From contig NZ_JAENIM010000039.1 in assembly GCF_016595495.1 (NCBI RefSeq), positions 292,659 through 356,658 on the forward strand: 64,000 bases of DNA, given 5' to 3'. The DNA is from Persicirhabdus sediminis (lineage in GTDB: Bacteria > Verrucomicrobiota > Verrucomicrobiia > Verrucomicrobiales > Akkermansiaceae). The notes beneath the pieces are model-generated. The model was given only the letters and a program-made list of their open reading frames with translations, did no database searches and had not been told where the DNA came from. Both the position numbers and the translations under genes were made by a program. How positions within the stretch are numbered: the first letter of the stretch is position 1; every line of letters begins with the position of its first letter. Shown here piece by piece: positions 53,315 to 63,633 of the stretch.

Positions 53315-54076
53315 CTAAAATTTGTATTCGATGCCGATGACGGGTCCGTGGGCGGTGACGTCGTAGGTAAATCCGTCGTCATGGTAGTCGGTATAGATGG
53401 CGCGGTAGCCGATGACGGCGCCGGTGCACGGGTTGATTTGCCAGCCGAGGCCGAGCATTGCTTGCCACGTTAGATCAGACGAGATGCCAAACCCGCCGAT
53501 GTCTCCAGCTGCGCGCAGGTAGAAATCTTCGTTGAATAGGTGGTTGTAGCGCAGGCCGATGATAGGGTCGACCCAGCTTTTGTCTTGGTCGATGTGGTGG
53601 TCATTGAAGTCGACGCTGACGTCTAGCCAGTTGCTACGCATGCCGCCGTAGAGTGACAAGGTGGAGCTGTTGGATTGATAGACTTCATAGCCGAGCACGA
53701 GGTTGGTGATGAGTTGTTTTTGCTCGAGGCTGATAGATGACCGCGGTGTGCGGTGGTCGCCGCTGATGTCAGCGTAGTTGAGATCTAGCAGCAGGCTCCA
53801 TCTGTCTTTGCCAATTTCCAATGAGCCCATGAAGCCGACCTCTAGATTGTCGACGAGATCTGAGAATGGCACGTTGATGTCGGCAATGTTATTGCGCACG
53901 CCGATGTCGCCGTCTAATGATTGCGCCCAGAGGTAGATGGCGGCACGATAGTACCAGCCGTCGTTAGTATTTTCTATACTCAATGGTGGCGGGGTGAGTG
54001 GCTGGCTGGATCCAGCTAGTGATAGACTGGTGGTGGCGAGAACTAGACAGCTGCAGTAGGTGATAGTTTTTTTCAT
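53315..54076 (-). CDS. Outer-membrane beta-barrel protein
   Basis: 253 residues. Signal peptide MKKTITYCSCLVLATTSLSLAG, then alternating-residue amphipathic strands (WYYRAAIYLWAQSLDGDIGV, RWSLLLDLNYADISG, AVIGYRAIYTDYHDD) and a C-terminal aromatic KF, all typical of a small outer-membrane barrel. It is divergent from the AraC gene and shares its 205-bp control region, so co-regulation is likely. Specific transport role unknown. Confidence 0.8.
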   Translation of the reverse strand: MKKTITYCSCLVLATTSLSLAGSSQPLTPPPLSIENTNDGWYYRAAIYLWAQSLDGDIGVRNNIADINVPFSDLVDNLEVGFMGSLEIGKDRWSLLLDLNYADISGDHRTPRSSISLEQKQLITNLVLGYEVYQSNSSTLSLYGGMRSNWLDVSVDFNDHHIDQDKSWVDPIIGLRYNHLFNEDFYLRAAGDIGGFGISSDLTWQAMLGLGWQINPCTGAVIGYRAIYTDYHDDGFTYDVTAHGPVIGIEYKF

Positions 54077-54205
54077 GACTGTTTGATGGTGTGGGGTGAG
54101 ATTGCTGGATCTTTGTTAGTGGGTGGTTTTGCTGCGGTGATTAGTTGCTCTTTGTGTAAAAAATGCCGACTAGTAGCTAGACTAGAATGACTTGGCGCAA
54201 AGTGT

Positions 54206-54236
54206 CAAAATGCATCGATAGCCAAAATCCGCAGTT
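54206..54236 (+). promoter_or_regulatory. Candidate AraC operator, copy 1
   Basis: CAAAA at 54206 and CCAAAATCCGCAGTT at 54222-54236, 16 bases apart (start to start). The same two blocks with the same spacing occur at 57785-57815. Direct-repeat half sites one to one-and-a-half turns apart suit AraC-family binding. It lies upstream of both the AraC gene and the barrel gene. Confidence 0.55.
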
Positions 54237-54281
54237 AATGAGCTTGAGTTTGCAGTGACGGCTGGCGCATAGTGTTTTTTA

Positions 54282-55307
54282 ATGATGATTGACGGTCAGT
54301 TGGTTGAGATGGATTTCTCTGACGCGGGGATGTTTGAACAAGCAATTTTTGGTGGTCAGCTACACCCGTGCCAGCTGAGTAAAAAGCCAAGCCGGTCGAA
54401 GCTAGTTAGGGTGTTTTTAGATGCTGGCTGTTTGGATGTGGTGAGTGCTGGCCCGCAGATGTTGTACGAGGGGGTGATGCCAGCGGATTGTTATACGCTA
54501 AGTTTGGTGTTGCGCAGTCCTAGGCCGGCGCATTCGTTTAACTTTGGGCTGGATTTTACCGCTGGCTGGCTGGGCATGTTTCCGCCGTCTGGGGTGCTGG
54601 ATTCGGCAAATTCAGCTGGCTCTATCAATGCGATTTTAACTATCCCAGTGGCCGTGTTTGAGCGCGATGTGATGCGGCATTTTCCAGAAATGTCGGCGAG
54701 TATTTTGCGCCACGGTGGTGGCTGGGATTTGGGAGCCGAATCCTTTGTTCAGCTGCAGGCATTGATTCGTCTGCTGGTGGATGCGGCACACGCGCCAAAG
54801 GGAAATAAACTGCTAGCTGCCTACGGTCGCCAGCTTTTGCCCAATCTGCTGCGCGCACTGCGTCAGCGGCTAACTGATGAGGGTGATCGCCGCGCCTCTA
54901 TTTCTATCAACCGGGCGGTGGCTGACAATGGTGAGCCGAATGGAAGTACGAGTGGGCGAGCTAGAGGGACACGCCGCTATGAGCGCTTGCGCAGGGTGAG
55001 AGATTTTGTTCACGATCATCTAGCGGAGAATGTTAATGTTAGCGACCTATGCGTGTCGTCTGGCTTGTCTGAGCGTGGGTTAGAGAATTTGTTTAAAGAC
55101 CTGCTAGGGGTGACGCCGTCGGTATTTCTGCGTCACCAACGGCTGCATCTCGCGCGCCAGTTGCTGTTGGGGTCTGAGCCGGATGTGGGCATGGTGAAGG
55201 CAGCGGCGTACGCAAGTGGCTTTCTGCATCAGGGACGCTTTGCGCATTATTACTGCGGTTTGTTTGGTGAAATGCCTGCTCAAACATTGAGCAGGCATTC
55301 AGCATAG
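54282..55307 (+). CDS. AraC-family transcriptional regulator
   Basis: 341 residues. N-terminal sensor part with no named fold (residues 1-220), then the AraC double helix-turn-helix from ~230: LRRVRDFVHDHLAENVNVSDLCVSSGLSERGLENLFKDLLGVTPSVFLRHQRL and AAAYASGFLHQGRFAHYYCGLFGEMP. It should bind direct-repeat operators and activate genes. Location between the barrel and sulfatase/GH101 genes and the shared operator-like sequence suggest it controls them. The last codons form a strong hairpin. Confidence 0.9.
   Translation: MMIDGQLVEMDFSDAGMFEQAIFGGQLHPCQLSKKPSRSKLVRVFLDAGCLDVVSAGPQMLYEGVMPADCYTLSLVLRSPRPAHSFNFGLDFTAGWLGMFPPSGVLDSANSAGSINAILTIPVAVFERDVMRHFPEMSASILRHGGGWDLGAESFVQLQALIRLLVDAAHAPKGNKLLAAYGRQLLPNLLRALRQRLTDEGDRRASISINRAVADNGEPNGSTSGRARGTRRYERLRRVRDFVHDHLAENVNVSDLCVSSGLSERGLENLFKDLLGVTPSVFLRHQRLHLARQLLLGSEPDVGMVKAAAYASGFLHQGRFAHYYCGLFGEMPAQTLSRHSA
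55272..55298. terminator. Hairpin inside the AraC stop region
   Basis: A perfect 12-bp stem ATGCCTGCTCAA / TTGAGCAGGCAT with a 3-nt loop covers the last AraC codons. No T-run follows, but its position between converging AraC and sulfatase genes suggests bidirectional termination. Confidence 0.5.
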
Positions 55308-55322
55308 TTAGGTTGATGTTTG

Positions 55323-55371
55323 CAGCTGGTTTGTTAGCTGGAAATTATTCGCCAGCTGGTTTGTTAGCTGG
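55323..55371. repeat. 30-bp tandem duplication at the sulfatase 3' end
   Basis: CAGCTGGTTTGTTAGCTGG occurs at 55323-55341 and again at 55353-55371. One copy encodes the sulfatase C-terminus PANKPA; the other lies just beyond the stop codon and in the same frame. Confidence 0.85.
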
Positions 55372-57729
55372 CATGGGTTTGGAGATTTCCACTAGCAGCT
55401 TGGGAATCTGCCCATTGAACTTGGTTTCATGTTCGTTTTTGAACTCAGCCACCACCGGCGTGCCGAGGTCGAAGCCGACGTCAGCGGTTTCATCAGCTGA
55501 GAAAATCGCAGCCTGAGTGCGTGGGATTTCTCCTTCAGCGACAAGTTTGTCGCCAACAAAGAGTTTGCCCGTGCCGCCAGCGCCTGGGCCGGTGCCATTG
55601 TTAGTAAACTCAAATCTCAGCTGTAGCTGATCACCTTCGCTGCCAGCTGGCAGTGCTTGCTCAGCCATGATGGTGGTCTGCTCGAGGCCGAGGAAATTGT
55701 AGGTATAAGCAGGTTTGCCGTCATGACAGTGGAGCGCCCAGCCACCAAATCGACCACCTTGGGCGATGATCACGCCTTCAGCTGGCTGGTCGCCCAGCTC
55801 GATGTCGGCGGTGAGTACCTTGGACATATTTTTGACGTTGAGGAAATTGCTTTCCATGATGCCAGACATGCCATCGCTGAGCGTCATGGACGTTCTGCCA
55901 GCGAGGATATCTGGGCGGTTTACAGCGGTGGCATTGAGGCGCTCAAAGACACGGTCGTCGAGCGGGTAAACGTGGTATTTCAGCGCTTCTTCAGCGAAGA
56001 GCGCCTTCATTTCTTCGACCTTTTGTGGCTGGCTCTCGGCGATGTCATTGATGCAGCTGTAGTCTTCCTTGAGGTTATAGAGCTGCCATTTTTCCTCTTC
56101 CAGCTGGGCGCGCGGCTGAGCTTCCCACGGTGCGCGGTGGATGATGCGGGCAAACCATCCATCGTGGTAAATCGCGCGGTTGCCGGCGATTTCGAAATAC
56201 TGCGTTTTGCGCAACTCTTCAGCATTGGCGTCATTGAATGTGGGCATCAGGCTGACCCCTTCCATGGGGATTTGTGGTGTGCCGTTGACGATTTTTGGTT
56301 CCGGTAGCTGGGTGGCCTCGAGGATGGTGGGGGCGACATCAATGACGTGGCTGAACTGGTGGCGGATTTCATTTTTCGCCTGAATGCCTTTTGGCCAGGA
56401 GGCGACCATGCCTGAGCGGTTGCCGCCAAAATCTGAAGGCACCTGTTTGGTCCAGGAAAATGGTGTATCTAGCGCGACCGCCCAGCCAGCAGCCATGTGC
56501 GGGTAGGTTTCTGGCCCGCCCCATTGGTCGAGGTGTTGCAGCATGTCGGAGACTTTTTCAGGCACTTGGTTGAAGTAGGTATATTCGTTGAACATGCCAT
56601 TCATGCCACCCTCGGCGCTGGTGCCATTATCGCCCGCTACGTAGATGATGAGTGTGTTTTCCAGCTGGCCAATTTCTTCGATGGTTTTCACTAGCTGGCC
56701 GATGTGGTGGTCGGCGTAGTCGAGGTAGGCGGCAAATGTTTCTACCTGACGGGTGAAGAGTTTTTTCTCATCGGCATTGAGTTTGTCCCAATCCTGAATC
56801 GCTTTGGGTTTCGGTGCGAGCTGGGTATTGGCTGGCACGATACCCATTTCCAGCTGGCGCTTTAAGGTTTCTTCGCGCATCTGGTCCCATCCTTGGTCAA
56901 ATTTGCCATGCCATTTTTTGATCCAATCATTCGGCACGTGGTGTGGTGCGTGCACCGCTCCTGGGGCGAAGTAGATAAAAAATGGTTTCTCTGGGGTGAT
57001 GGCTTTTTGGAATTTGATCCACTGGCTGGCCTGCTCGGTCATGTCGGCCATGAAGTGGTAGTTCGGGTCGTCTGGCAGCTCGACGGGGGTGACGCCATCG
57101 TATAAATACGGTGCCCATTGGTTGGTCTCGCCGCCGAGGAACCCGTAGAATTTATCAAAACCACCATTTGGGCCGGTGGGCCAGCGGGTGTGTGGGCCGG
57201 AAACGCTGACCTCCCAGGCTGCGGTTTCGTGCCACTTGCCAAAGGCAGCGGTGCTGAAGCCATTGAGACGCAGCATTTCCGCCACTGGCGCGACGGAGTT
57301 TGGAATCATGCCTGTGGCGCCGGGAAATCCGGTGGCCATCTCGGTGATGAACCCCATGTTGCAGGTGTGGTGGTTGCGGCCAGATTTGAGCGCTGCGCGA
57401 GTGGGCGAGCACAGTGCTGTGGTGTGGAAATGGGTATATCGCAGGCCATTTTCCGCTAGCTGGTCGAGCGTGGGGGTGGGAATCGGGCCGCCAAAAACGC
57501 TAGAGGCGCCAAAGCCCAAGTCATCCAGCAAGATGAGCAGCACGTTGGGCGCTCCAGCTGGTGCTTTGACATCAACACGTTGTGGCAAGTTAGCCTTGCG
57601 GGCGTCCATCTCGGTGATCACCGGGCGGGGTGGCAGCTGGATGGGTAATACCGTGCGGTCTAACTCAGCCGCCGTGAGTGAGCTGGTCAGCGCAGCCGCT
57701 GCCAGCAGTGAGGATATGGAAATTTTCAT
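55345..57729 (-). CDS. Arylsulfatase, formylglycine-type (CSPTR)
   Basis: About 794 residues from ATG 57729 (the open frame extends further without a signal sequence). Signal peptide MKISISSLLAAAALTSSLTAA; metal-site start NVLLILLDDLGFG (65-74); Cys107 in CSPTRAALKSGR, to be converted to formylglycine; then IYVAGDNGTSAEG and KWHETAAW. The C-terminal extension is beta-rich. Hydrolyses a sulfate ester, probably on glycan, outside the cytoplasm. No maturase (FGE or anSME) gene is in the window. It is divergent from the GH101 gene. Confidence 0.93.
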   Translation of the reverse strand: MKISISSLLAAAALTSSLTAAELDRTVLPIQLPPRPVITEMDARKANLPQRVDVKAPAGAPNVLLILLDDLGFGASSVFGGPIPTPTLDQLAENGLRYTHFHTTALCSPTRAALKSGRNHHTCNMGFITEMATGFPGATGMIPNSVAPVAEMLRLNGFSTAAFGKWHETAAWEVSVSGPHTRWPTGPNGGFDKFYGFLGGETNQWAPYLYDGVTPVELPDDPNYHFMADMTEQASQWIKFQKAITPEKPFFIYFAPGAVHAPHHVPNDWIKKWHGKFDQGWDQMREETLKRQLEMGIVPANTQLAPKPKAIQDWDKLNADEKKLFTRQVETFAAYLDYADHHIGQLVKTIEEIGQLENTLIIYVAGDNGTSAEGGMNGMFNEYTYFNQVPEKVSDMLQHLDQWGGPETYPHMAAGWAVALDTPFSWTKQVPSDFGGNRSGMVASWPKGIQAKNEIRHQFSHVIDVAPTILEATQLPEPKIVNGTPQIPMEGVSLMPTFNDANAEELRKTQYFEIAGNRAIYHDGWFARIIHRAPWEAQPRAQLEEEKWQLYNLKEDYSCINDIAESQPQKVEEMKALFAEEALKYHVYPLDDRVFERLNATAVNRPDILAGRTSMTLSDGMSGIMESNFLNVKNMSKVLTADIELGDQPAEGVIIAQGGRFGGWALHCHDGKPAYTYNFLGLEQTTIMAEQALPAGSEGDQLQLRFEFTNNGTGPGAGGTGKLFVGDKLVAEGEIPRTQAAIFSADETADVGFDLGTPVVAEFKNEHETKFNGQIPKLLVEISKPMPANKPAGE

Positions 57730-57784
57730 GTTTGTAGATGGTTGTTCAACCAACTGACAAAATAAGTCCTGTGGGTGAGCTAGG

Positions 57785-57861
57785 CAAAAATAATTTGTAT
57801 CCAAAATCCGAAGTTGTGCTTTCTGTCTGACGCATCTGGTTTTTTGGAACTCGCCTATAAT
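57785..57861 (+). promoter_or_regulatory. Candidate AraC operator copy 2 and -10 element of the GH101 promoter
   Basis: CAAAA at 57785 and CCAAAATCCGAAGTT at 57801-57815 reproduce the blocks of the AraC promoter with identical 16-bp spacing. Downstream, TATAAT at 57856-57861 is a perfect -10 on the + strand with no good -35, as expected for an activator-dependent promoter. The region is shared with the divergent sulfatase. Confidence 0.55.
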
Positions 57862-57923
57862 CAATTAGATCGTGAAATTCCGCTAGAGCAGTCATTCACG
57901 GGTTGTTTGGCGGTGAAATTTGC

Positions 57924-58058
57924 ATGATGAAAAAACCATTGGTTATTAAAAGTAATTTCGTATATGAACTCGGCCAGTTTGAGTGCTGGACACGCCTGAT
58001 CGATGGCACAGAAGGCGAGTTCGCTCTAACTATTTACACCAAACCAATCTATGTCTAA
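57924..58058 (+). CDS. Small ORF overlapping the GH101 start
   Basis: 44 codons from ATG 57924 (ATG also at 57927), stop TAA at 58056-58058. The first eight bases of the GH101 gene (ATGTCTAA) overlap its end, a classical coupling arrangement. The peptide (MMKKPLVIKSNFVYELGQFE then CWTRLIDGTE and FALTIYTKPIYV) resembles nothing I know. It lies 62 bp beyond the TATAAT box. It may be a regulatory leader or a chance ORF. Confidence 0.4.
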   Translation: MMKKPLVIKSNFVYELGQFECWTRLIDGTEGEFALTIYTKPIYV

Positions 58059-60969
58059 ATATTTCACACCCCAGCTGGTGGGCACAATATCCGCCTGCCT
58101 TATTGCGGCAGGCCAAGGTGCCGAGCTCAGTAACAAGAATCTATCGGTAGTGACAGATGACGCTTTTCCAAGCATCGTTAGTTACACTCACAAGCCGAGT
58201 AAGTCGGTGATTAACGGCCAGCAAAAAGCAGCAAAAAGCATTCTATTAAATGGCAAAGAGACTGATTATAAAGTCACTAGCAAATCACTTGATGCGGCCA
58301 GCGTTGAATACAAGCTGACCTTTGCAAAAGAGAAAATCACTGCCACGCTCGTCTTCACGCTGGAGGAAGATAGCCTTCTCATCACCATGACTGAGGTGGA
58401 CGAGCAGGGGGATGCGAAGTTGCACAGCTTGGATTTCCCAGAGAATACGCTCTACCAATACAAAGCTAGCCAGAAAAATAGCTCAGTGGCGATGACCAAC
58501 AGAGGTAAGGATCGTGAGATCATCTTTGAGCTGAAAGATATTGTGATTGGCAACAATTGGCGTAGCTCTGAGCAGGTTCCTGCGCTTGGCAGTTGTCGAT
58601 ATTTGTTTGGCACCACAGGCGACCTTGCGCTCGGCGTGGCTAGCAACCATCATACTGATACGCAACGCACGGCATTTGCCGCTTCCGGCAAAGGTGATGA
58701 TGCAGAATTTCGTGCGCTGATGCCACAGCTCGCGTATCGGGAAATCGACAGCGAGACCAATGAAAAGCCATTTGTACGTGTCTTCCTCACCAGTGATCGC
58801 AATGGTGATGATAAGGCGACTTGGCAGGACGCCGCTCTGGTTTACCGCGAGACCATGCCCAAGCCATTTGGCCACGAAGAGACCAAAAAGATCGTTGGCC
58901 AGAATATCGCGATGAATTTTGCCAGTGGAGCTCAGCGTCCATTTCTCAGCATGCTGGATGACATCAAGCGCGGCTATCTAGCCACCGATGGTCTGGAGCA
59001 GCAGGTGCTGATTAAGGGATTCAGCGCGGAGGGCCATGATAGTGCCAATACCGATTATTCAGGCCACTACAACGAACGAGCAGGAGGTTTGCGTGACCTG
59101 CAAGTTCTCACCGAAGAGTCTAGAGCATACAACGCGCGCATTGGTTTCCACATCAATGTCAGCGAGGTTTATCCAGAAGCTCACCGCTACGACCCAGAGA
59201 TCATTGAGATGAAAGACGGGGTGAAGAAAAATGGCTGGAAGTGGCTGGACCAATCCTACGAAATCGACAAACACCACGACATGGTCAAAGGCGACCTGCA
59301 GAAGTCATTTATCGGCATGGCTAAAGACCTGCCGGATCTTGAATTCATCTACGTCGATACCTATCACAGCAATGGCTGGCCAGCATGGAAGCTAGCTGAG
59401 CTGCATCGCAGTACGGGCTTGAGAATGGGAACTGAAAATAACTCAGCTCTGGATCCGTGGTCAATTTGGGCGCACGCGCGCAAAGAATATGGCACCATCA
59501 CTCGCTTTATTTGGTATTCTGACCGCGACATTTTTAGTGATAATGTCCTGCTGCGCAGTGGTTACGGCGCTGGTTTTATGGGGTGGAAAAACCAACATAA
59601 CTTTGAGAGTTACATCAACTCTACCTTCTCCATTGGCCTGCCATCGAGCTACCTGAGACACTATGATCTGCTTAGCTGGGAGCCTGGCGTGGAAGCGATT
59701 TTCTCTGATGGTGTGGTTGCTCGTATTGAAGGTGAAGAGGTGGTTGTGAGCCAAGATGGTCGCAAAGTCATGAGCTGGGATCTCGAGCGTGAAAAGACAC
59801 GTCTGCTGGTGCCATGGAATCCCATCACTGCAGATAAACTCTACCTGTGGGATAAAGTTGGCTGTACAAGTAGCTGGGAATTACCTGATAGCTGGCGCAA
59901 ATACGATAGCGTCTACCTCTACCAGCTGACCGATACTGGCCGCGCCAATGAGCAGAAAATTGCAGTAAATAATGGCACCATTTCGGTGAGCCCAGACGCT
60001 GCAGTTCCTTATGTGATCTACGCCAAACCAGCTGGAAAAGTCAGGGAGATGGACTTTGGAACGGCTGCGCGATTGCGTGATCCTGGATTTGATAGCTACC
60101 AGCTGGACCATTGGTCGCTGACTGGCAATCAAGCCAATTTCAAAATCGTCAATGACAGCAAACGTAACCCACAGCTCAACGTGGGAGCTGAAGCTGGATC
60201 TGCCAGCCAGAAACTGCGTTACCTGCAAGGTGGCAAAACCTACGCGGCATCCGTCTGGGTGAATGTTAGCGGTGATGAGCGCAAGGCGTCTATCACAGTG
60301 ACACCTAAGGGCGGTAAGCCTGTTAGCAATTACGTCACCAAGACAGATGTGCAAATGCGTGTTCCTAATAGCAAGTGGTCGAAGACAAATTTCAACCGCA
60401 TCAAGGTGGTCTTTGATCTGCCAGCTGGCGTTGATGAAGCCACGCTCAGCCTAGCTGCTGAGGCGGGTAAGGATGGTAGCAAGGTGATCTTTGATGAAAT
60501 CCGTGTGGTGGAATCTGGCCGCTCGGCGCAGGCTGCCAAGCACTGGTTCTACGAAGATTTTGAAAACGTCGACATGGGCTGTGGTGTTTTTGAATGGTGC
60601 TCGGGTGAGCGCAGTCATTTGGCGGAAGCCAATCCACCTTATACCAAAGATGTTATCAGTGGTCGCTTTTCATTAAAGACACGTGAGAGGAATAATTCGA
60701 CTTATGCGCGGACACTGCCGGCTACTTTGCGCTTTGCTGCCAACACCAGCTATACTCTAGTTTGTAAAACACTCACAGGTGAAGAAGCGTCGGGGAAAAT
60801 TGAAGCTCGCGATGGTAAAACGGTGCTGGCTTCAGCTGATATCAAGTCTGGTGCCAATACTGTGGAGCTGACATTCACAACTAAGTCTGAAGATGCCTAC
60901 CTGGCGCTGACTAAGCTTAGTGGCGACTGGCTGAGCATCGACGAGGTGGCCATCGACGAAGCCAAATAA
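58051..60969 (+). CDS. Endo-alpha-N-acetylgalactosaminidase, GH101
   Basis: 972 residues with a signal peptide. A mutarotase-like N-terminal domain precedes the barrel: GQNIAMNFASGAQRPFLSMLDDIKRGYLATDGLEQQVLIKGFSAEGHDSA, FHINVSEVYPEA, GWKWLDQSYEID, and the active site FIYVDTYHSNGW with D436 as likely nucleophile and E462 (GTENN) as likely acid/base. The spacing D-E is shorter (26) than in the pneumococcal enzyme. The C-terminal ~250 residues contain CBM-like beta domains. GH101 releases the core-1 disaccharide Gal-beta-1,3-GalNAc from Ser/Thr of mucin-type glycoproteins. Shorter than pneumococcal relatives, without a wall anchor. Confidence 0.9.
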   Translation: MSKYFTPQLVGTISACLIAAGQGAELSNKNLSVVTDDAFPSIVSYTHKPSKSVINGQQKAAKSILLNGKETDYKVTSKSLDAASVEYKLTFAKEKITATLVFTLEEDSLLITMTEVDEQGDAKLHSLDFPENTLYQYKASQKNSSVAMTNRGKDREIIFELKDIVIGNNWRSSEQVPALGSCRYLFGTTGDLALGVASNHHTDTQRTAFAASGKGDDAEFRALMPQLAYREIDSETNEKPFVRVFLTSDRNGDDKATWQDAALVYRETMPKPFGHEETKKIVGQNIAMNFASGAQRPFLSMLDDIKRGYLATDGLEQQVLIKGFSAEGHDSANTDYSGHYNERAGGLRDLQVLTEESRAYNARIGFHINVSEVYPEAHRYDPEIIEMKDGVKKNGWKWLDQSYEIDKHHDMVKGDLQKSFIGMAKDLPDLEFIYVDTYHSNGWPAWKLAELHRSTGLRMGTENNSALDPWSIWAHARKEYGTITRFIWYSDRDIFSDNVLLRSGYGAGFMGWKNQHNFESYINSTFSIGLPSSYLRHYDLLSWEPGVEAIFSDGVVARIEGEEVVVSQDGRKVMSWDLEREKTRLLVPWNPITADKLYLWDKVGCTSSWELPDSWRKYDSVYLYQLTDTGRANEQKIAVNNGTISVSPDAAVPYVIYAKPAGKVREMDFGTAARLRDPGFDSYQLDHWSLTGNQANFKIVNDSKRNPQLNVGAEAGSASQKLRYLQGGKTYAASVWVNVSGDERKASITVTPKGGKPVSNYVTKTDVQMRVPNSKWSKTNFNRIKVVFDLPAGVDEATLSLAAEAGKDGSKVIFDEIRVVESGRSAQAAKHWFYEDFENVDMGCGVFEWCSGERSHLAEANPPYTKDVISGRFSLKTRERNNSTYARTLPATLRFAANTSYTLVCKTLTGEEASGKIEARDGKTVLASADIKSGANTVELTFTTKSEDAYLALTKLSGDWLSIDEVAIDEAK

Positions 60970-60989
60970 GCTCGTCCGGTTCGCTAAAA

Positions 60990-61028
60990 AACGCGCTAGG
61001 CTGCAATAGCTTAGCGCGTTTTTTTTGA
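60990..61028. terminator. Bidirectional terminator after GH101
   Basis: Stem AACGCGCTA / TAGCGCGTT with A-run before and eight T after, between converging genes. Confidence 0.85.
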
Positions 61029-61043
61029 TTTAAATGGGAGAGG

Positions 61044-61835
61044 TTATTGGGCCATTTCCTCGGCTTCAGTCTCGGGGTCGTAGTTGAGAAGTTCTGCCAC
61101 CAGCTGGATATCTTCACCGCCAGCTTCGACATGTTTGCCGCCGACTTGCTTTGGCTGGAAACCGATAGAGAGTACACCGATGGCGTGGCCATTGGTATCT
61201 AAAATAGGAGCGCCGCTGAAGCCGCGTAGATCAACGGCGGGTTCGATAGAAAAGCGGAATAGGTTGCCGTGTTCGCGTTTGGTGACTTCGCCTTTGTAGA
61301 CGTTTTGGACGCTGGCTGGCTCGTCGTAGGGGACACCAACGAGGTAGACGGTTTCGCCTACTTCAGCTGGCTCGGCGCGCATGCGCAGTGGTTGCGCCGG
61401 GTAGCCGAGCGGGTTGAAAACTGTCTCCATCACTAGCCAGTCGTGAGATTCCTCGTAAGCATAGTCTTCGGTAAAGATGACGCGACCTAACTTCAGTGAT
61501 TGGTCACTGAGCGTGCGCGGGTGTACTTTCCAGCTCTCTAGCACTTCGTCTAGATAGTAACTATCAATCTCTGGGGTGACGCCGCCATTAGGGCCAAGTA
61601 GATGGCGGGCTGTAGCGCCGTATGTTAGCCCGCGTTTGTCTTGTACCAGAAAGGCGCTGGCACCGCGAAGTGGTGTATGTCCGGTGAATTTGGCCTCGTT
61701 GGTTAATACAATTTGTGGCCACTCGGAAAATGCTTTGTTGGCCCACGGCTCTGGCGTAGAGAGGTCAACGGCATTTTGTTTCTCCATATCGCAGGAGGCG
61801 AGTAGCATAGGGATGATGGCGATGAGCAACTTCAT
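61044..61835 (-). CDS. Trypsin-like serine protease lipoprotein
   Basis: 263 residues. Lipobox with C15 (LLASC). Chymotrypsin-fold triad is visible: H78 (ATARHLLG), D132 (HDWLVME) and S207 (GFSGAP). No PDZ domain follows. It should be attached to the envelope and cut periplasmic proteins, or act as a sensor of one. It is convergent with the GH101 gene and shares its terminator. Partner substrates are unknown. Confidence 0.85.
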   Translation of the reverse strand: MKLLIAIIPMLLASCDMEKQNAVDLSTPEPWANKAFSEWPQIVLTNEAKFTGHTPLRGASAFLVQDKRGLTYGATARHLLGPNGGVTPEIDSYYLDEVLESWKVHPRTLSDQSLKLGRVIFTEDYAYEESHDWLVMETVFNPLGYPAQPLRMRAEPAEVGETVYLVGVPYDEPASVQNVYKGEVTKREHGNLFRFSIEPAVDLRGFSGAPILDTNGHAIGVLSIGFQPKQVGGKHVEAGGEDIQLVAELLNYDPETEAEEMAQ

Positions 61836-62250
61836 ACAGAGGGTGATAGGTTAGAGTTAATTTTTGTGTCGAGTTGCTAGCTTTTGTCAAACTGATATCT
61901 TTGGTGTTAGTGATTGATTTTGTGTTATTTGTCTGACTTTCTCACGCTTTCGCTGAGTCGTGATTCAGGTTGGTGTCATCTTCTGATCCATCACATCAAT
62001 TAAGTGTTTCTATCTTCTGTTGGCTAGTGTATTTCCAGCTGGCTGGGAAAAATGGCTTCACACAGATGGATGATAGATTTCTCTGGCTGGTGATTTCGCT
62101 GTGCATATTATGCACGCAAGTTTGCATAATTTGTTTGTGTCTTGCTTGACTTGTTCAGACGCTCATTTTTGTATGAAGTCACACCTTGGTGAGAGCGTCA
62201 CCTCAAAGCTCTTATCAACCAAGCGACTTTCACACTTTTCAAAAACAAAC
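61836..62250. other. Intergenic region between divergent protease and cytochrome genes
   Basis: 415 bases. Contains a CCAGCTGG copy (62035-62042). A weak promoter-like pair TTGACT (near 62147) and TTGTAT 17 bases later may serve the cytochrome gene. No ORF or RNA with support. Confidence 0.45.
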
Positions 62251-62826
62251 ATGAAAACACCACTAGTTCCCACCCTGCGCCGATTGGCGATGCCTGTAAT
62301 GCTCACTTGTACTGCTGCGGCTGTGATCAGCTGCTCCGACGAAGGTAAGCTAGGTGATAACGACCTCAAGGTTCGTGATGATTTGACTCAAGAAATGGCT
62401 AGCTACGCACAAGGTGGTGCGAGCGAGGACGCTGAAGTGATCCCAGCTGAAATCATGGCTGCTGGTGAAGCAGCTTACGCAATCTGCTCAGCTTGCCACG
62501 GACCTGACGGTGCTGGACTCGACCTTGGTGGTGGCATGATGATGGCTCCAGCGCTGGCTGGATCTCCAGTAGTGAATGGCGACCCATCTCTATCTGCGCT
62601 GGTGATCCTGCACGGTATCGAAAAAGAAGGCACTGATTTTGTTGGCATGATGGCGCCACTGGCAATGGAAGACGACCAGCTGGCTGCAGTGCTTACATAC
62701 ACTCGCAACAGCTTTGGCAACTCAGCTGGCCTAGTGACTCCTGAGCAAGCCGCTGAATTCCGCGCTCAGTGGGCTGACAGAACCGCTCCAGTAAAACGTG
62801 CTGAGCTCACCGAACTCACTAAGTAA
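62251..62826 (+). CDS. Cytochrome c lipoprotein (monohaem)
   Basis: 191 residues from ATG 62251; the long frame to 62101 adds no recognisable sequence. Lipobox VISC-S with C28, an acidic linker, then one haem site C79-S-A-C82-H83 and a downstream Met-rich stretch (FVGMMAPLAM) supplying the likely axial ligand. Electron carrier at the envelope, perhaps feeding a terminal oxidase. pdxJ follows; its start lies in the terminator-like hairpin. Confidence 0.88.
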   Translation: MKTPLVPTLRRLAMPVMLTCTAAAVISCSDEGKLGDNDLKVRDDLTQEMASYAQGGASEDAEVIPAEIMAAGEAAYAICSACHGPDGAGLDLGGGMMMAPALAGSPVVNGDPSLSALVILHGIEKEGTDFVGMMAPLAMEDDQLAAVLTYTRNSFGNSAGLVTPEQAAEFRAQWADRTAPVKRAELTELTK

Positions 62827-62864
62827 TTTTAGACCATCAGCTGGCAATGACTTGCCACTGTGAG

Positions 62865-62897
62865 GCTCATGCGGTAGCTCTACCGCATGAGCTTTTT
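62865..62897 (+). terminator. Terminator hairpin of the cytochrome gene overlapping the pdxJ start
   Basis: GCTCATGCGGTAG (62865-62877) pairs perfectly with CTACCGCATGAGC (62880-62892), then five T. The pdxJ ATG (62887-62889) lies inside the 3' arm. The two-base loop means the top pairs probably open. Confidence 0.75.
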
Positions 62898-63633
62898 ATT
62901 AGGCGTAAATATTGACCACATCGCGACACTTCGTCAGGCGCGATACGCTTTACTACCAGATTCACCCAATGCTGAGCCGAGTCCGCTCGAGGGTGCCATT
63001 GATTCCATAGCTGGCGGTGCCGACTCTATCACCGTACACGTGCGTGGCGACCGCCGCCACATGCAAGAGCAAGATGTATTTGCCATCAGCGAGCAGCTGG
63101 ACATCCCGCTCAACCTAGAAATGGGCAATACCGCAGAGATGCTAGACATCGCGCTGCGCCTCAAACCTGAGTTTGTCTGCCTGGTGCCAGAAACTCGTGA
63201 AGAAGTGACCACAGAAGGCGGGCTGGACGTCGACGGCCTATTTGATTCCCTGCAGCCAACGGTAGCCCAGCTGAGAGCTGCTGGCATCAAGGTGAGCATG
63301 TTTATTGACCCAGACATCGCCCAGGTGGAAGCATCCGCTCGCATCGAGGCAGAAATGGTAGAGCTGCACACGGGATGTTTTGCCAATGCCTTTGGTGAGC
63401 AGCGCGCCGAGGAAGTCGCGCGCCTCAAGCTAGCTGCTGAGCGTGGCCACGAGCTCGGGCTGCAAGTAAATGCCGGCCACGGCATCAACTACGAAAACAT
63501 TGCCGACCTCGCTGAGGTGCCACACCTCAAGGAATTCAACATCGGCCATACCATCGTCTCGCGCTCGGTGCGTGTGGGCATGACGCAGGCCGTCGCTGAA
63601 ATGCGCACGGCAATCGGCAAATATTTTGCATAA
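62887..63633 (+). CDS. pdxJ: Pyridoxine 5'-phosphate synthase
   Basis: 248 residues, family length. Start motif LLGVNIDHIATLRQAR; GADSITVHVRGDRRHMQ; EMGNTAEMLDIAL; LVPETREEVTTEGGLDV; AGHGINYENI near the end. Joins 3-amino-2-oxopropyl phosphate and 1-deoxyxylulose 5-phosphate in B6 synthesis. An in-frame TAG at 62875 fixes the start at 62887, within the hairpin. No Shine-Dalgarno is visible. acpS follows after 16 bp, a common pairing. Confidence 0.96.
   Translation: MSFLLGVNIDHIATLRQARYALLPDSPNAEPSPLEGAIDSIAGGADSITVHVRGDRRHMQEQDVFAISEQLDIPLNLEMGNTAEMLDIALRLKPEFVCLVPETREEVTTEGGLDVDGLFDSLQPTVAQLRAAGIKVSMFIDPDIAQVEASARIEAEMVELHTGCFANAFGEQRAEEVARLKLAAERGHELGLQVNAGHGINYENIADLAEVPHLKEFNIGHTIVSRSVRVGMTQAVAEMRTAIGKYFA

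Follow-up and report, generated by a model that had tools for sequence, protein, structure and literature searches.

Genes and paired sites at the locus

The stretch of DNA analysed, hereafter the window, is 64,000 nucleotides long and derives from Persicirhabdus sediminis. The leftmost gene of interest (53315..54076, minus strand) encodes an outer-membrane beta-barrel protein of 253 aa, matched weakly by the Pfam model OMP_b-brl (25.7 bits, under the cut-off of 28.7); a 56% identical protein is found in the same arrangement in the related genome G051. Divergent from it is the gene of an AraC/XylS-type regulator of 341 aa (54282..55307, plus strand), in which the HTH_18 domain covers residues 259-337 (56.7 bits against a cut-off of 33.6), and thus identifies an AraC/XylS DNA-binding domain. 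The nearest solved relative of the regulator profile is the AraC-type DNA-binding domain 3mn2. The N-terminal part, about 230 residues conserved among orthologs, has no Pfam match, and a search of the genome contigs with the AraC protein detected only a distant HTH match.

Next comes a sulfatase of 794 aa (55345..57729, minus strand; Pfam Sulfatase, 197 bits) carrying the active-site motif CSPTR, which, along with the domain, marks it as a formylglycine-dependent enzyme. On the opposite strand, an endo-alpha-N-acetylgalactosaminidase of family GH101 (58051..60969, 972 aa) is securely identified by a Glyco_hydro_101 match of 260 bits flanked by accessory domains. GH101 genes are present in 4 of the 195 genomes of the family sample. 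A 44-aa reading frame (MMKKPLVIKSNFVYELGQ..., window 57924-58058, plus strand) runs at its end into the GH101 start in ATGTCTAA; it may encode a leader peptide or represent a small gene with translational coupling. Directly past the GH101 gene lies a strong terminator-like hairpin (60986-61024; 18 pairs followed by a T run), possibly common to GH101 and to the convergent protease-like gene at 61044-61835.

The pattern CAAAA-N11-CCAAAATCCG-N-AGTT has two exact copies here. One (54206-54236) separates the barrel start (54076, minus strand) from the AraC start (54282), and the other (57785-57815) lies between the sulfatase ATG (57729, minus strand) and the GH101 ATG (58051). Both places are non-coding, and in both CAAAA begins 16 bases upstream of CCAAAATCCG. 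The two 31-bp copies, their positions and their identical spacing had been correctly described in the initial annotation, along with a TATAAT (57856-57861) for which a -35 box at usable distance is indeed missing. That such a coincidence would hardly arise by chance is also borne out. When up to 3 mismatches are allowed in the full pattern, the window holds the two sites and nothing else, against 0.03 matches expected; only these two exact copies exist in the whole 4.17-Mb genome, so that the motif is not common there, and it is present at the orthologous loci of relatives, the two points that had been named as checks. The short core CCAAAATCCG is by itself unremarkable, since 8 occurrences with 1 mismatch were observed against 4.8 expected. 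The next best match genome-wide, a third copy with 2 mismatches on contig C46, falls within the reading frame of a galactokinase and was set aside as a chance occurrence.

Layout of the element

The element, 33 bp long and read on the strand of the barrel and sulfatase genes, corresponds to site S1 at 54203..54235 and to site S2 at 57782..57814 (both minus strand). When the window is scanned with leave-one-out profiles, S1 and S2 rank as the top two. The layout is TGCG-N6-GGATA-N10-T(T/C)G-N16-18, followed by a -10-like hexamer. The regulator core is TGCGGATTTTGGCTA at 54219-54233 in S1, and TTCGGATTTTGGATA at 57798-57812 in S2. TGCG-N6-GGATA is kept in nearly all of 13 sites, the deviations being GGCTA in S1 and TTCG in S2. 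In the ungapped alignment of the first ten elements, positions T2, C4, G5, T10, G12, G13, T15, A16, T21, T27 and G29 are invariant, and T21, T27 and G29 lie outside the part used for lining up the elements.

XylS-type operators have the form TGCA-N6-GGNTA, in which one monomer touches box A and box B through its two helix-turn-helix motifs (PMC5481539, PMC4514859, PMC6205950). The invariant letters coincide with the two boxes at the same N6 spacing, so that the core has the layout of a XylS half-site, the fourth base of box A being G instead of A.

The regulator part being TGCG-N6-GGATA, the notion of a bipartite AraC operator can be retained for a conserved regulatory site linked to the barrel, the sulfatase and the AraC gene, and is not supported for its CAAAA half. 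Judged from the sequence, CAAAA more likely represents, in reverse complement, a -35 box belonging to the barrel and sulfatase promoters than a second half-site for the regulator: only two of its letters, the C and one A (positions T27 and G29 of the element), are conserved, a -10 box lies at the right distance, and no core-like repeat is found at 21 bp. In its place the target strand carries T(T/C)G, namely TTGACA in S1 (54203-54208) and TTGCCT in S2 (57782-57787). Hexamers resembling a -10 box occur 16-18 bp past the -35 on this strand, the best of all offsets tried (summed over 14 sites, shuffle p 0.0004); agreement is best in the A+T-rich genomes, and several G+C-rich relatives match poorly. 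The proposed -10 boxes are TAGTCT for the barrel (54179..54184, minus strand, 18 bp after TTGACA) and TATTTT for the sulfatase (57759..57764, minus strand, 17 bp after TTGCCT); at S1 the best score in the test belonged to the overlapping TCTAGT, 16 bp after TTGACA. As for a second half-site about 21 bp away, no offset near 21 bp scores as half-site-like across the sites, and a lone TGCA at 21 bp is seen at S1 alone.

On the other side of the element, araC-side sites in relatives repeatedly show a TTG 6-8 bases beyond its edge; S2 and the corresponding sulfatase site of G051 (G051b) lack it. This TTG is likely the -35 box of araC. In the window, the proposed araC promoter (54244..54273, plus strand) would consist of TTGAGT at 54244-54249 and CATAGT at 54268-54273. 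The end of box B is separated from the target -35 by 10 bp, and S1 from the probable araC -35 by 8 bp.

Conservation among relatives

Conservation was monitored in a family sample of 195 genomes, which is incomplete and in which several relatives are represented by draft assemblies. Near full-length orthologs of the AraC protein, about 40% identical (range about 36-45%), reside in seven of these genomes (G128, G051, G124, G041, G134, G193 and G052), and the gap upstream of araC holds one related element in each of the seven. A homologous sulfatase adjoins araC, or is one barrel gene away, in five of them (G052, G134, G041, G193 and G051). G051 has kept the barrel, the AraC gene and the sulfatase with both sites of the window, the second one again upstream of its own sulfatase. 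The element is directed at a barrel or a sulfatase gene in G051 as in the window, and likewise where it occupies an araC-sulfatase or araC-barrel gap in the other relatives. Several sites were initially chosen by eye in short gaps; in leave-one-out scans all ten rank first in their own locus or second to a sibling site, with scores of 18.8-34.9 bits against at most 13.8 for everything else. Additional elements, outside the ten-site profile, were found in G183 (two) and in G389 (between araC and sulfatase), and a weaker one lies about 120 bp upstream of a sulfatase in G124.

A model built on 13 elements retrieves nothing but S1 and S2 from the home genome at E<=1. In the family sample, matches at E<=0.01 are confined to nine genomes, all of which had supplied sites, and are absent from the other 186. 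Recovery of sites in the training genomes is circular, because most of the genomes matched had contributed to the training of the model; free of circularity are the leave-one-out ranks, the absence from the 186 other family genomes, and the outcome of a motif-only search in 73 genomes of one other genus. This search yielded one new site, in the previously unexamined genome G409 (E 0.0096). A barrel gene lies about 150 bp downstream of it, with a sulfatase next and a DUF1254 gene farther on. No close AraC ortholog was detected beside the G409 site. The inner spacing of the element is fixed across genera in which the proteins share about 40% identity. The presence of the element in 7/7 relatives, the second site of G051 and the G409 match make the predicted operator, and a regulon formed by regulator, barrel and sulfatase, well supported.

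Genes recurring downstream of, or near, the sites in relatives encode, besides the sulfatase, barrels, DUF1254/DUF1214 proteins, an Lnb_N protein and further sulfatases; in G183 an alpha/beta hydrolase and a Phenol_MetA_deg outer-membrane protein are found nearby. Between the alpha/beta hydrolase and a barrel gene of G183, behind one of the sites, resides a homolog of ligand-gated ion channels (L073 2774-3817, minus strand; Neur_chan_LBD and Neur_chan_memb domains). The home genome hosts on contig C44 a paralogous cluster of the same arrangement, sulfatase and barrel divergent from araC (L014 5534-9217). The model finds nothing in this cluster at E<=1; its gap does contain a bare TGCG-AAAAAG-GGATA, of the form TGCG-N6-GGATA, in the other orientation, toward araC. 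The sulfatase-araC-barrel group of G051 (L071 7538-15189) lies a few kb from a pdxJ-like gene, and a pdxJ-like gene is likewise near the group in the window (53315-63633, the gene itself at 62887-63633), which hints at a possible old synteny.

Probable regulation of the cluster and known systems

The AraC protein is probably a local activator of the barrel and sulfatase promoters, which it would reach through the XylS-like sites S1 and S2. According to this view, the protein would bind TGCG-N6-GGATA, the end of which precedes the -35 box by 10 bp, both at the divergent barrel promoter (S1) and at the sulfatase promoter (S2), and in the presence of an inducer, plausibly related to a sulfate ester, it would recruit RNA polymerase to both. 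It may in addition adjust expression of its own gene from S1, and is probably self-controlling, because S1 is 8 bp from the probable araC -35. A more tentative and somewhat doubtful extension is that the single half-site, set between divergent -35 boxes at 8 bp (araC) and 10 bp (target), serves as a two-way switch operated by one bound monomer. Were this true, the cluster would exemplify a distinct promoter architecture of an AraC/XylS subfamily, copied without the araC-side promoter before other targets.

The GH101 gene had been included in the regulon by the initial annotation, in which S2 serves both divergent genes, and barrel, regulator, sulfatase and GH101 form one regulon for the use of sulfated mucin-type O-glycans. 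S2 does lie between sulfatase and GH101, the identity of GH101 is secure, and the TATAAT at 57856-57861 would imply a GH101 start about 60 bp past the site, within reach of some activators of the AraC family. This extended regulon is nonetheless unlikely. The site is oriented to the sulfatase, with -35 and -10 boxes on the sulfatase strand, and toward GH101 there is no counterpart of the araC-facing -35 of S1-type sites. The related loci carrying the site all lack a GH101 gene; in G051, the only related genome to have the sites as well as GH101, two GH101 genes reside on contig C3 without a site, and both sites are on contig C1. The site is conserved beside barrel, AraC and sulfatase genes, and these members of the regulon stand; GH101 is a neighbour, and its membership is unsupported. 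The substrate fares no better. The mucin reading was due to GH101 alone; the closest kin of the sulfatase are general arylsulfatases, and among the repeated neighbours examined in relatives (DUF1254/DUF1214 and Lnb_N proteins, further sulfatases) there is no glycoside hydrolase. By comparison of relatives alone, the locus does not qualify as one for sulfated mucin O-glycans, in which GH101 would be co-regulated with the sulfatase.

Alternatively, the AraC protein might act as a repressor, blocking both araC and barrel -35 boxes by binding between them until released by an inducer. In araC-side gaps the site is indeed placed between two divergent -35 boxes at a near-fixed distance; yet it is upstream of the barrel and sulfatase -35 rather than over it, the usual place of an activator, and at S2 and G051b the sulfatase-side -35 is kept and the araC-side one is absent, all of which makes repression improbable. 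It is rather remote that the element is the target of another regulator, and that the AraC gene merely adjoins it. G183 and G409 carry the site without a close full-length AraC ortholog; still, the layout is that of an AraC/XylS half-site, strong sites are confined, G183 and G409 apart, to genomes having AraC orthologs (G389 included), and the location upstream of araC is typical of self-regulation. Hardly credible, finally, is that chance, or a recent duplication of a promoter fragment devoid of regulatory meaning, accounts for the two sites. The genome holds two copies only, but their flanks differ, and an element kept across genera at such protein distances, with fixed inner spacing, contradicts the notion.

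With activation by the AraC protein as the preferred reading, the locus offers an operator that can be tested, and a small regulon, for one sulfatase of a sulfatase-rich bacterial family. The operator may be exploited to find more targets, such as barrels and DUF1254 proteins, and, via the inducer, the substrate of the sulfatase. No description was found in the literature of the regulator and inducer of this sulfatase, of an AraC-controlled sulfatase with DUF1254 neighbours, or of a sulfatase regulon in this group. The regulon is new and the comparative evidence for it solid, the AraC/XylS regulator system itself being of an ordinary kind.

Among characterized proteins, those of solved structure that come closest to the sulfatase in sequence are AtsA of Pseudomonas aeruginosa (1hdh) and the arylsulfatase 7all, than which it is about 260-270 aa longer. 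The NCBIfam models nearest to the HTH domain include AraC regulators of the EutR, AndR and GbdR types; all matches are far under the curated cut-offs (AndR, 71 against 350 bits), and the regulator is not a member of these groups. Operators offer closer parallels. XylS, likewise an AraC/XylS-type regulator, recognizes at the Pm promoter of the Pseudomonas putida TOL plasmid the same half-site (box A TGC(A/G), 6 bp, box B GGNTA) upstream of the target -35. Pm has two half-sites, arranged as direct repeats about 21 bp apart, whereas one conserved half-site is predicted here, box B ends 10 bp upstream of the -35, and the target genes differ. CphR, which controls 4-chlorophenol oxidation in Rhodococcus, similarly has TGCA-N6-GGNTA sites between the regulator gene and its target, but as two repeats, from -35 to -49 and from -55 to -69. 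The main difference from the known cases would be a single site, predicted near -47 to -61, in place of the pairs used by XylS and CphR, the latter of which reaches -35.
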